Positions 6,070-34,194 of a stretch of DNA of 34,194 nucleotides are shown one piece after another. This DNA is from Frankiaceae bacterium (GTDB lineage: Bacteria; Actinomycetota; Actinomycetes; JADGOV01). The DNA is taken from contig JADGOV010000023.1 of NCBI GenBank assembly GCA_017882785.1, positions 1-34,194 on the forward strand, in the 5' to 3' direction. Under the pieces are notes generated by a model, which did no database searches, had not been told where the DNA came from, and saw nothing but the letters and a program-made list of their open reading frames with translations. The translations under genes and the position numbers were made by a program. The first letter of the stretch is position 1; the number at the start of each line of letters is the position of its first letter.

Positions 6070-6981
6070 TCATTCGGCCAGTGCGATGCCCCATTCCCCC
6101 GTCCAGGTCGCTCCAGGTTCGATGGTGACCACGTCCGTTCCGCTGGCCAGGGCATTGGGCGGCGCGCTCATGGGTTCCACACCCAGCCCTTGGCGTCGCC
6201 GGTCGCGGTCCGGCAGGGCGTCGCCGGTGAATACCTGCAGGTAGGGATAGGCACGGTCGGCCCAGAGTTCGGTCACCCATTCCCCGCGCAGCCGCACCCG
6301 GGCCAGGCCGTCCGCGTCCCGCTGCAGGTCCCGGTATGCGTGGTCGATGACGGCGCTCCCGATCGGCCGCGTCGCGCGGAAGTCGTACGGCGTGTCCTCG
6401 ACGGACTCGATGCCGTCGGGGATCTGCTGCAGATCGGTCGGCAGCCACGACCTCGCCGGCACGTTCAGGGTCGCGCCGTCGATAGGGCCGCTCCCGGCTC
6501 GCAGATAGGGGTGGGCACCGGCCGCGAACGGCGCCGCCGTGCCGGTGAGATTCGTCGCCGTCGTCCGCACCGTGAGTCCGGACAGGGTAACGGTGTAGTG
6601 GAGGCTGAGGTCCAGCCCCCAGTTCCAGCCGGGTTGTGGAGGTAACCGGTAGGTCATGAGCACCGACGACGGCTCCTGCACGGCACAGCGCCAGTTTTCC
6701 CAGCGGGTGAGGCCATGGATGGCGCAGGAATTGGTGGGTTCGGTCAGCGCGAGCTGGAAGTCCTGGCCCTGCCATCGGTAGCGACCGTCGCGGACCCGGT
6801 TGGGCCAGGGCAATAACGACTGGCCGCGGGCGCCGTCACAGACCGCGTCGGACGGGTAGCCATCAAGCAGGTCGTGGCCGTCCACCGCGAGCAGTCGTAG
6901 CGCGCCACCGACCTCCACGACAGTGGCGATGGTCCCGCCGGATCGGATCACGAACTGCTCGCCCGAAGGCTGTTGTTCCAC
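6070..6981 (-). CDS. Aldose 1-epimerase family protein
   Basis: A 303-residue protein of the galactose mutarotase-like beta-sandwich fold. The family interconverts alpha and beta anomers of aldoses or hexose-6-phosphates. Visible family features are LLPWPNRVRDGRYRWQGQ (the substrate-binding 'NR' segment), NSCAIHGLTRWENW with the conserved His, a second His in AAGAHPYL, and a late GVEPMSAPPNA, where the family has its 'EP.t..pna' signature and catalytic Glu. I start at the GTG at 6979-6981 (MEQQPSGEQF), with GAGGTAGG upstream, because residues before it are not family-like. It diverges from pntAA with only about 50 bp between starts. Galactose mutarotation would fit the nearby galE. Confidence 0.88.
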   Translation of the reverse strand: MEQQPSGEQFVIRSGGTIATVVEVGGALRLLAVDGHDLLDGYPSDAVCDGARGQSLLPWPNRVRDGRYRWQGQDFQLALTEPTNSCAIHGLTRWENWRCAVQEPSSVLMTYRLPPQPGWNWGLDLSLHYTVTLSGLTVRTTATNLTGTAAPFAAGAHPYLRAGSGPIDGATLNVPARSWLPTDLQQIPDGIESVEDTPYDFRATRPIGSAVIDHAYRDLQRDADGLARVRLRGEWVTELWADRAYPYLQVFTGDALPDRDRRRQGLGVEPMSAPPNALASGTDVVTIEPGATWTGEWGIALAE

Positions 6982-31381: not shown

Positions 31382-32377
31382 CTAGGAGCCTTCCGCCAGC
31401 CACCGGCGGAGCCGCAGCAGCCCCTCCTCGATGCTGACGGCCGGGTCATAGCCAAGGTCGCGGCGGGCGGCCGTGATGTCGAACCAGTGCGTGGTGGCCA
31501 GTTGGCGGGCCAGGAACCGGGTCATCGGCGGCTCGTCCTCCCGGCGGAGGAGACCGTAGGCACCCTCCACCAGCGTCCCGACCGCGAAGGCCACCGGAAA
31601 GGGCACTGTCGCCGTCACCGGGGGGAGGTCGGCGGCGGCGAGGATGGCATTGGTCAGCTCGGCGATCGAACGGGGGTCGCCCTGGGAGATGAAGTAGGCC
31701 CGGCCCGCGCCCCGGCCCTGAGCCAGCGCAGCCGCCGCCAACAGGTGCGCGTCGACCGCATTGTCGATGTAGGTGCTGTCGACCAGGGCGCGGCCGTCGC
31801 CGACGAACCGCAGCTGCCCGCGACGGGCCCGGTCGAGGATCTTGGCGGTGAGTTGGGTGTCCCCCGGTCCCCAGATCAGGTGCGGGCGCAGGGCAACCGT
31901 GGCCAGGTCCGCGTCGTTGGCGCCTAGGACGTCGCGTTCGGCCAGCGCCTTCGTCGCCGGGTAGGGCGCCGAGAACCGGGTGGCATAGGGCAGCCGCTCG
32001 TCCCCACCGGCCAGGTCACCGCCGGCGTGCACGACGGCGGGCGTCGAGGTGTGCACGAGTCGGCCGACGCCGGCGTCCCGGCAGGCGCGGATCACGTTGC
32101 GGGTGCCGATCACGTTGGCGGTCCGGAACTGGGCCGGCCGGCCCGCGATGCCGGCCCGGGCGGCCACGTGGAAGACCACGTCCGCGCCGGCCACCGCCTG
32201 TCGAACGGCGTCGGCATCAGCCAGGTCGCCACGGTAGGCTGAGATGCCCAACGCCTCCAGTTCGGGGTAGCGGCCCCGGTTGAACGTGCGGACCGCGTCG
32301 CCGCGGGCCACCAGGCGACGGAGGAGGGCGCCGCCGAGGAAGCCGCCGCCGCCGGTGACCAGTGCCGTCGTGCTCAT
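31382..32377 (-). CDS. oleD: 2-alkyl-3-oxoalkanoate reductase, OleD-like
   Basis: A 331-residue extended short-chain dehydrogenase. The NADP motif is VTGGGGFLGGALLRRL (about 7-22), the active-site Tyr-Lys pair is in YPATKALAE (Tyr about 139, Lys 143), and HTSTPAVVHAG precedes it. HLIWGPGDTQL, FVGDGRALVDSTYIDN and ARRDLGYDPAVSIEEGL are typical of the 3-beta-hydroxysteroid dehydrogenase/OleD branch. In olefin synthesis OleD reduces the OleA condensation product to a 2-alkyl-3-hydroxy acid. The ATG overlaps the oleC stop by 4 nt (32374-32377), which with the oleB/oleC context raises the call above a generic reductase. Confidence 0.88.
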   Translation of the reverse strand: MSTTALVTGGGGFLGGALLRRLVARGDAVRTFNRGRYPELEALGISAYRGDLADADAVRQAVAGADVVFHVAARAGIAGRPAQFRTANVIGTRNVIRACRDAGVGRLVHTSTPAVVHAGGDLAGGDERLPYATRFSAPYPATKALAERDVLGANDADLATVALRPHLIWGPGDTQLTAKILDRARRGQLRFVGDGRALVDSTYIDNAVDAHLLAAAALAQGRGAGRAYFISQGDPRSIAELTNAILAAADLPPVTATVPFPVAFAVGTLVEGAYGLLRREDEPPMTRFLARQLATTHWFDITAARRDLGYDPAVSIEEGLLRLRRWLAEGS

Positions 32378-34002
32378 CGCAGCCGGCGGGTCGCCCAGCG
32401 GGCCACCGCGGCACGGTCGATCTTCGAGTTGTGCCGGATGTCGACGGGGAAGTCCTTCCGGTACAGCACCGCGTCGACCCCAGCGGTCGCCGAGTGGGCC
32501 GCGGTGCGGGCCAACACCTCCGCGGTCAACTCGGGCGATGGTCGGTGGCCGGGCTCGAGTTGGACACAGATGACCGGCCGCTGGGAGCCGGGCTCACCGA
32601 CGCCGACCAACGCGGCTCGGCGGATCGCCGGGTGCGCGGTGACGATCTCCTCGGCGGGTGAGGTGTAGAGCGTGCAGGAGGGTGTCTGGACCCGCTGCGT
32701 CTTGCGGCCGCAGAACCACAGCCGCCCCTCGTCGTCGAGGTAGCCCAGGTCGCCCATCCGATGCCCGGTCACCCCGTCCCAGTCGAGCTTCGCGGCCGCG
32801 GTCGCCACCAGCCGGTCGGCATAGGTCGTCGTGACGTTGGGACCACGCACGACGATCTCACCGACCTCACCGGGCTGCACTCTCTCGGCGAGACTGGCCA
32901 GCGGCTCGTCGGTAATCGGGATGATGGCCACATCCACCCCCGGTACCGGGCGACCGACGCAGACGCCGGGCTCGCTGATGCCCTGCAGCTCCCGGCCGAT
33001 GGAGGTCACCGGCAGTGCCTCGGTGGCTCCGTACGGGGTGCAGACCTCGGCATCTGGCGGCAGCATGTCGAGTATCCGGCGCTGCACCTGCGATGGCACG
33101 GGCGCGCCGGCGGAGATCACCCGACGCAGCGGAGCCAGACGCCGGCCGGTGCGGGCGCCCCAGCGCCCGACAGTGTCCAGCAGCGCCGGTGAGCCGAACA
33201 GCACCGAGGCGCCGAAGGTGGTGACCGCGTCGGCCAACCGCTCCGGGTTGATCCGGGCGGGTCGGGTGGGATCCATCCGCGGGATCACCGTGGTCAGTCC
33301 GAGCAACGGGCCGAGCAGGGCGAACGGGGGAAACGTGGCTACGCTCACCTCGCCCGGCACGACGGCGTAGAGCATCCGCAACAGCGCCACCTGGGCGAGG
33401 AAGTTGCTGTGCCGGTACTCGACTCCCTTCGGGACCCCCGTGCTGCCGCTGGTGAAGGCGATCGCCGCGACGGCCTGGTCCTCGACCGGCAGTGGTGCGA
33501 AGGGCAACCGGGCCGCCCCGGCCCGTTCGACCGCCCGCAGCGTCCGGCCACCTCCCGGCGTCCGCGGTCCGACGGTGACGAGCAACCGGGCGCTCGGGCA
33601 CCAGCGCAGCGCCCGGCGCGCGGTATGCGCCCGCGGCACCGCGACGAACGCCATGGGCGCGGCCTCGCGTAGACACACCCGCAGGTTGGTCGCCCCGATG
33701 CCCGGATCGATGAGCACCGGCACGGCCCCGGTCTTGAGCAGCGCGTACGCGACCGCGAAGAAGTCCGCACCCGGCGGCACCAGCATCGCCGCCCGATGTC
33801 CCGGGCGCAGCCCCATCGCCGCCAGTCCGGCCGCCAGCGCGTCGCTACGCCGGGACAACTCGGCGTAGGAAACCGCCCGGAAACCGCCCCGGCCGCTGCG
33901 GTGCCGGCGCCCCGCGGGCAGCAGCAGGGCAGGGGAGTGCGGCCGTGACCGCGCGTGCTCGGCGAAAGCGGTCAGCACCGTGTCCGGCGCCGCCATGCTC
34001 AC
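32374..34002 (-). CDS. oleC: Olefin beta-lactone synthetase, OleC-like
   Basis: A 542-residue ANL-superfamily enzyme. The P-loop is AFTSGSTGVPKGVEYRH (about 182-198), the ATP motif is YGATEALPVTSIG, and GRLWFCGRKTQRVQT covers the hinge. The C-terminus has FPVDIRHNSKI (Lys about 527), the OleC signature that replaces the usual acyl-CoA ligase ending. OleC uses ATP to close a 2-alkyl-3-hydroxy acid into a beta-lactone. The start is ambiguous: the GTG at 34000-34002 lies in the first 11-bp repeat, while the ATG at 33994-33996 is two codons in. The GTG is given because it overlaps an upstream TGA. Confidence 0.9.
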   Translation of the reverse strand: MSMAAPDTVLTAFAEHARSRPHSPALLLPAGRRHRSGRGGFRAVSYAELSRRSDALAAGLAAMGLRPGHRAAMLVPPGADFFAVAYALLKTGAVPVLIDPGIGATNLRVCLREAAPMAFVAVPRAHTARRALRWCPSARLLVTVGPRTPGGGRTLRAVERAGAARLPFAPLPVEDQAVAAIAFTSGSTGVPKGVEYRHSNFLAQVALLRMLYAVVPGEVSVATFPPFALLGPLLGLTTVIPRMDPTRPARINPERLADAVTTFGASVLFGSPALLDTVGRWGARTGRRLAPLRRVISAGAPVPSQVQRRILDMLPPDAEVCTPYGATEALPVTSIGRELQGISEPGVCVGRPVPGVDVAIIPITDEPLASLAERVQPGEVGEIVVRGPNVTTTYADRLVATAAAKLDWDGVTGHRMGDLGYLDDEGRLWFCGRKTQRVQTPSCTLYTSPAEEIVTAHPAIRRAALVGVGEPGSQRPVICVQLEPGHRPSPELTAEVLARTAAHSATAGVDAVLYRKDFPVDIRHNSKIDRAAVARWATRRLR

Positions 34003-34040
34003 TCTTGGCTCACTCTTGGCTCACTCTTGGCTCACTCTTT
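33997..34040 (-). repeat. Four 11-bp tandem repeats at the oleB-oleC junction
   Basis: Four units of GCTCACTCTTG on the plus strand (33997-34007, 34008-34018, 34019-34029, 34030-34040; the last ends in T). On the coding strand each reads CAAGAGTGAGC and provides an AAGAG stretch and a GTG. Each GTG opens the mini-ORF M-S-Q-E-stop, whose TGA overlaps the next unit's GTG. The final GTG is the proposed oleC start. A diverged unit at 34041-34047 contains the oleB stop. Confidence 0.95.
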
Positions 34041-34043
34041 GAC

Positions 34044-34194
34044 TCACCGGTTGGCGGCGCCGCTGACCGCTGTCCCGCCGACGGAGCCGTCGGGCGCGGC
34101 ACCGGCGAGGAAGTCGAGCACCAGCGGCACGATCGCGGCAGCAGCGTCCTCGAGCACGTAATGCCCGGCCTCGGGAAAGCGGTGGACCTCCGCC
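34044..34194 (-). CDS. oleB: Beta-lactone decarboxylase, OleB-like, C-terminal fragment
   Basis: The last 50 or so codons of an alpha/beta hydrolase; the gene runs off the right edge. The visible sequence is AEVHRFPEAGHYVLEDAAAA followed by IVPLVLDFLAG and a short tail ending GAANR. The His in EAGHYVLEDA is the catalytic base position of haloalkane-dehalogenase-like hydrolases, the family of OleB, which decarboxylates the beta-lactone to a cis-olefin. The OleB assignment rests on this motif together with the adjoining oleC and oleD. Its stop (TGA, 34044-34046) is overlapped by a GTG, giving GTGA. Confidence 0.8.
   Translation of the reverse strand, partial: AEVHRFPEAGHYVLEDAAAAIVPLVLDFLAGAAPDGSVGGTAVSGAANR

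Follow-up and report, generated by a model that had tools for sequence, protein, structure and literature searches.

Tandemly repeated stop/start overlaps at the oleB/oleC junction of a Frankiaceae bacterium, one instance of a junction structure recurring in its genome and class

Between oleB and oleC of this Frankiaceae bacterium, an overlapping stop/start signal is repeated several times in tandem, which raises the question of how such an array arose and whether a ribosome finishing oleB can still be handed on to oleC. The window, i.e., the whole stretch of DNA that was analyzed (contig G000:C144, 34194 bases), stops inside oleB; the assembly is a draft, and the array, known from the assembled sequence, lies 150 bases from the end of the contig. 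The genes oleB, oleC, and oleD are adjacent and co-directional, as expected of an Ole hydrocarbon operon, and OleB, OleC, and OleD have been described as a single complex (PMC7158056). The 49-aa OleB tail showed 86% identity over 29 of its last residues to the OleB of a class member, genome G008 (L101), and this OleB matches haloalkane-dehalogenase-type hydrolase models. OleC matched the NCBIfam olefin beta-lactone synthetase model with E=1.7e-174 and OleD matched its NCBIfam model with E=1e-132, both below the respective model's cutoff. The start of oleC is most likely GTG 34002, with ATG 33996 two codons downstream as the alternative start. A record titled Bacillus subtilis SK7B5 (L067, JAHREJ010000027.1) carries an oleC that ranks among the Stenotrophomonas matches, and the record is likely to be mislabelled or contaminated.

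Read directly on the minus strand, the oleB/oleC junction is ...AACCG GTGAGTCAAAGA GTGAGCCAAGA GTGAGCCAAGA GTGAGCCAAGA GTGAGC ATGGCG, in which the three GTGAGCCAAGA units are exact copies of one another (Table 1). TRF reported 3.9 perfect 11-bp copies with a 100% match over 33997-34039, and the score of 86-88 was the top one among the TRF rows of the window. The original prediction placed GTG codons at 34047, 34035, 34024, 34013, and 34002, in steps of 12, 11, 11, and 11, with the oleB stop embedded in a GTGA and with four-codon frames opening at 34035, 34024, and 34013 whose closing TGA overlaps the following GTG in every case. Direct reading bore this out, locating the oleB stop within GTGA at 34047-34044, and added one refinement: GTG 34047 and GTG 34035 share a reading frame, and the passage from the oleB stop to oleC therefore takes three mini-ORFs, 8, 4, and 4 codons long. 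The shortest chain runs from the oleB stop through 34047-34021, 34024-34010, and 34013-33999 to the oleC GTG at 34002, with a 4-nt overlap at each step. oleB and oleC do not themselves form a -4 overlapping pair sharing an RTGA, being separated by 41 nt (44 nt from stop codon to start codon), but each of the three mini-ORFs does overlap in this way. At the oleC/oleD junction of the same operon, the two genes overlap in the ordinary way, by one ATGA (32377-32374, context GCGATGAGCACG). A further perfect 2-copy 11-bp repeat, GGAAACCGCCC, lies at 33868-33889 of the window, within the oleC coding region.

Table 1. Features of the ole junction in the window and related junctions elsewhere in the same genome
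Feature	Location	Strand	Content and basis
oleB 3' end, cut by contig end	34044..34194	(-)	Stop TGA 34046-34044; frame read directly
Tandem stop/start array	33997..34047	(-)	GTGAGTCAAAGA 34047-34036; GTGAGCCAAGA x3 34035-34003; GTGAGC 34002-33997
Mini-ORF 1, VSQRVSQE-stop, 8 codons	34021..34047	(-)	Start overlaps oleB stop, stop overlaps GTG 34024 (chain trace)
Mini-ORF 2, VSQE-stop, 4 codons	34010..34024	(-)	Stop overlaps GTG 34013 (chain trace)
Mini-ORF 3, VSQE-stop, 4 codons	33999..34013	(-)	Stop overlaps oleC GTG 34002 (chain trace)
oleC, beta-lactone synthetase	32374..34002	(-)	NCBIfam/Pfam matches; G008 and G027 homologues also begin GTG AGC
oleD	31382..32377	(-)	NCBIfam model match
Left arms of two nested inverted repeats in the oleB end	34052..34074	(-)	Partners 33985-33995 and 33964-33976 in oleC; weak evidence
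uppP/His-phosphatase, argJ/argB, and udg/tsaE junctions	L125, L127, L128 (contigs C26, C29, C38)		Unbroken -4 mini-ORF chain in each
ribH/hisG junction	L126 (C29:34181)		Irregular ATGA/GTGA array, 8-9-nt steps (TGAATGACCGAATGACCTGAATGACTGAGTGA)
Units before ABC ATPase	L131 (C125:28416)		Three 11-bp units GTGAGCCACAA/GTGAGCGACAA directly before the start; putative upstream gene, may be divergent

The two closest OleC homologues in the class, found in G008 (62% identity) and G027 (60%), were used to assess the earlier state of the junction. In both genomes (L101, L102), oleC begins GTG AGC and the oleB stop is overlapped by one GTGA, while in class members farther away either OleB and OleC share one long frame or the junction is of another type. 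The number of units is therefore 1 in G008 and G027 and 5 here, in a comparison between species in which the order is represented by one genome. Most simply, a single GTGA (-4) overlap would be the ancestor that was tandemly duplicated into the array; the direction of change, from single copy to array, is what we infer from these relatives. The single copy in the two nearest relatives and the continuous -4 chain here agree with the original prediction, in which an overlapping stop/start signal had been duplicated in tandem at the junction. The possibility that an OleBC fusion was split by the array, suggested by open frames of 855-883 aa in G008 and G027, was rejected: the upstream part of these frames is not OleB, which is encoded in a different frame and terminates at the GTGA. 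No DNA similar to the array was found in plasmids.

We consider it probable that a single GTGA overlap was duplicated in tandem and that the array has been tolerated as a near-neutral insertion because coupling was preserved. Tandem duplication of an ancestral oleB/oleC overlap would alter neither protein, since the first copy retains the oleB stop and the last copy retains the oleC start. As the units, apart from a leading one of 12 nt, are 11 nt long (2 mod 3), each stop is still joined to the next start at 4 nt. Coupling is nearly abolished at gaps of ~20 nt in Escherichia coli and H. volcanii, and for coupling to occur an upstream gene need contribute no more than its final 15 nt (PMC10666635). 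Given this published loss at ~20 nt, a gap of 41 nt would break direct coupling between oleB and oleC, and the chain holds each step at -4. Termination-reinitiation could then be passed via the three mini-ORFs to oleC across the 41-nt separation. Chain-breaking duplications are found less often, as if arrays were kept where coupling survives. On this reading, ribosomes would use the mini-ORF chain.

The same genome was searched for the pattern RTGA-N7-RTGA-N7-RTGA, and nine matches were obtained at eight loci, all at gene boundaries; from the local RTGA density (6096 RTGA in 2 x 587 kb), about 1 chance match of this three-copy 11-nt pattern is estimated for the genome. Pfam domains were detected on both flanks for most of these loci. 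Clear arrays are present at four of the eight, namely ole, uppP/His-phosphatase, argJ/argB, and udg/tsaE, and all four open with a unit containing the upstream stop and close with one containing the downstream start. Counting all eight loci as arrays was rejected, as two are not: rbfA/DHH is a single overlap with the remaining RTGAs inside rbfA, and Fer4/ETF looks like a stop followed by a Shine-Dalgarno sequence and a start. The ribH/hisG array is irregular, and the upstream gene at the ABC ATPase locus is unconfirmed. The 17-mer GTGAGCCAAGAGTGAGC occurs once in the 3.2-Mb genome, the unit pair of the ole array is present only at ole, and the other arrays have different unit sequences. The array type is not unique to ole, and nothing ole-specific was demonstrated. 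Of 152 stops that are closely followed by a co-directional gene in unselected stretches, 4 begin a tandem repeat, compared with 0.6% of other VTGA sites; VTGA sites were the only control in this comparison, a random-position control having been discarded as probably spoilt by N runs. The four repeats have periods of 7 and 9.

Sampled matches from the class had a coding stop and a coding start nearby in 11 of 34 cases, compared with 22 of 1680 random positions. A five-unit array in G047 (L147), for example, leads from an AP_endonuc_2 gene to a TetR gene; its unit 1 contains the upstream stop, and its unit 5 the downstream start. An unbroken -4 chain from the upstream stop to the downstream start was present in all seven arrays that were traced, including those with irregular units of 10, 12, or 17 nt. 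The ole array is one instance of a wider junction structure that recurs in the genome and the class. Three further observations were made in other class genomes. In G193, 11-bp repeats start exactly at stop codons (L226, L231, L234), and the next predicted gene follows ~90-160 bp further on. G193 and G145 contain many matches at period 11 (22 and 19), but not at period 13 or 14. In G160 (L252), a 17-bp GTGAGGACGGTGCGCGG-type array at ~6395-6500 on the minus strand runs into GTGAGCCAG, a possible gene start, and 17 is also 2 mod 3.

The length of the units offers a way to compare coupling-preserving duplications with others. For uniform units of length p, a frame opened by an RTG terminates at the TGA of the following unit only if p = 2 mod 3. 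Periods of 8, 11, 14, and 17 give an unbroken -4 chain and two-unit arrays of 7, 10, or 13 give none, although periods of 1 mod 3 also chain when the unit number is odd. Among 395 class genomes, the three-copy RTGA pattern was found at period 11 in 345, at period 14 in 318, and at period 13 in 245; these counts cover three periods, include non-independent genomes of the same family, and count long multi-unit arrays repeatedly. The totals in the first 100 genomes were 320, 340, and 146 for periods 11, 14, and 13, and pairwise, period 11 exceeded period 13 in 72 of them and fell below it in 14, while period 14 exceeded period 13 in 57 and fell below it in 15. The genome carrying the ole array has 9, 7, and 1 matches at these periods. 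A reversed RTGA pattern was rejected as an unfair control, AGTR being about half as frequent as RTGA, and period 13 was compared with periods 11 and 14 instead. An 11-nt length as a special ribosome step was also rejected, because period 14 is nearly as widespread.

Tandem repeats were also counted by phase. With RTGA in register, 18 repeats were at 2 mod 3 and 8 at 1 mod 3, compared with 67 and 143 for repeats without an in-register RTGA (contrast p = 0.00035, calculated after removal of five ascertained arrays and from ~2 Mb of stretches). When triples in the stretches were simply counted, with all periods included, the outcome of 13 vs 5 was no more than suggestive (p = 0.10). That periods 11 and 14 outnumber period 13 is expected if coupling-preserving chains survive better, and selection on coupling may be the cause of this bias. 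The idea that ribosomes hop through the units is thus indirectly supported by the unbroken chains in seven arrays together with the period bias. Extended to the whole class, it would mean that repeated stop/start overlaps are kept in the 2 mod 3 phase by selection, with stepwise re-initiation and with repeat number as a possible dial, which we put forward only tentatively.

The period data also bear on whether the array is a neutral tandem duplication with no translational role, tolerated simply since insertions at the junction alter no protein, with oleC starting independently. We regard this as unlikely, though far from implausible. Stop-linked tandem repeats in the same genome have periods of 7, 9, 9, 9, and 11, not just 2 mod 3, and there is weak Shine-Dalgarno-like pairing ~5 nt upstream of oleC. 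At the 11-nt units, the array was calculated to pair with the 16S tail (assumed sequence) at about -4.8 kcal/mol, which is close to the median for random positions; this pairing is weak, yet present, so that oleC could start independently. However, neutral duplication predicts neither the excess of periods 11 and 14 over 13 nor an unbroken chain in seven arrays. The original prediction had named a separate oleC promoter inside the array as evidence against its reading; a sigma-70 scan, which is a weak test, detected no promoter in the array and no terminator.

The original prediction further held that gain or loss of units by slippage shifts the OleB:OleC ratio, and this tuning by repeat number now appears improbable. 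Exact 11-bp units are prone to slippage, and the unit number does vary among species, from 1 in G008 and G027 to 5 here. Nevertheless, a tuning role specific to ole is made less likely by the similar arrays at argJ/argB and udg/tsaE, and a changed ratio would bring no obvious benefit to proteins that form one complex (PMC7158056).

Coupling might instead proceed by RNA unfolding, with a stem between the oleB end and the oleC start being opened by the oleB ribosome and the array serving only as the loop. Nested inverted repeats, one of 11 nt (100%) and one of 13 nt (92%), flank the array, which would fall in their loop, and in the predicted fold the oleC codons just after the ATG are paired (z = -2.45). 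The absolute fold energy, however, is ordinary for this GC-rich window (rank 419 of 1050), and we give this reading very little credence. Direct repeats of 11 bp also bring to mind the boxes of OmpR/PhoP-type regulators, which repeat head to tail at ~11 bp, and GCTCACT on the opposite strand of the array loosely resembles known half sites; this was rejected as the least credible reading, because unit sequences differ among arrays, the others in the genome sharing little beyond RTGA (GTGAGACTGCG, GTGAGCCACAA, GTGAGCCCGAG), and because the arrays lie inside operons before unrelated genes, with 14-bp periods nearly as widespread.

The array was compared with known systems. The original prediction knew of no described example of such an arrangement, which was too strong a statement, as mycobacterial MIRUs carry a small ORF coupled at -4 (PMC12548453). 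The senX3-regX3 spacer contains several MIRUs, and its composition varies among strains (PMC4213456). Both MIRUs and the ole array are repeats between co-directional genes with a small ORF at -4 to the next gene (PMC12548453, PMC4213456), and the chain trace showed this coupling to the flanking gene at ole. In contrast, the senX3-regX3 units are 53-77 bp long and belong to one family said to be mobile, whereas the ole units are 11 bp long and are not dispersed copies of one conserved, apparently mobile element. Each stop/start array has its own sequence and appears to have been duplicated locally. The stop/start arrays are therefore not MIRUs, in view of their 11-bp units, array-specific sequences, and apparent local duplication. 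Each chain step is like an ordinary -4 (ATGA/GTGA) pair with termination-reinitiation (PMC10666635, PMC6728339), but here several overlaps in series part the two genes. Short ORFs that deliver ribosomes downstream likewise end where the next gene begins (PMC12548453), whereas the ole chain is natural, tandem-repeated, and derived from the junction itself. Among the papers searched, none described short stop/start tandem arrays, which is not proof of absence.

The distance that a ribosome can cover beyond a stop codon is a matter of dispute, as reporters have shown coupling to be lost beyond ~20 nt in some cases and to act over long distances in others (PMC10666635). The natural arrays, with -4 at every gap and genes 20-45 nt apart, are ready-made constructs for this question, and the period bias predicts which of them keep coupling. 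They also show that operon junctions can lengthen with both proteins unchanged. If the chain is indeed read in this way, repeat number could act as a dial on downstream translation.
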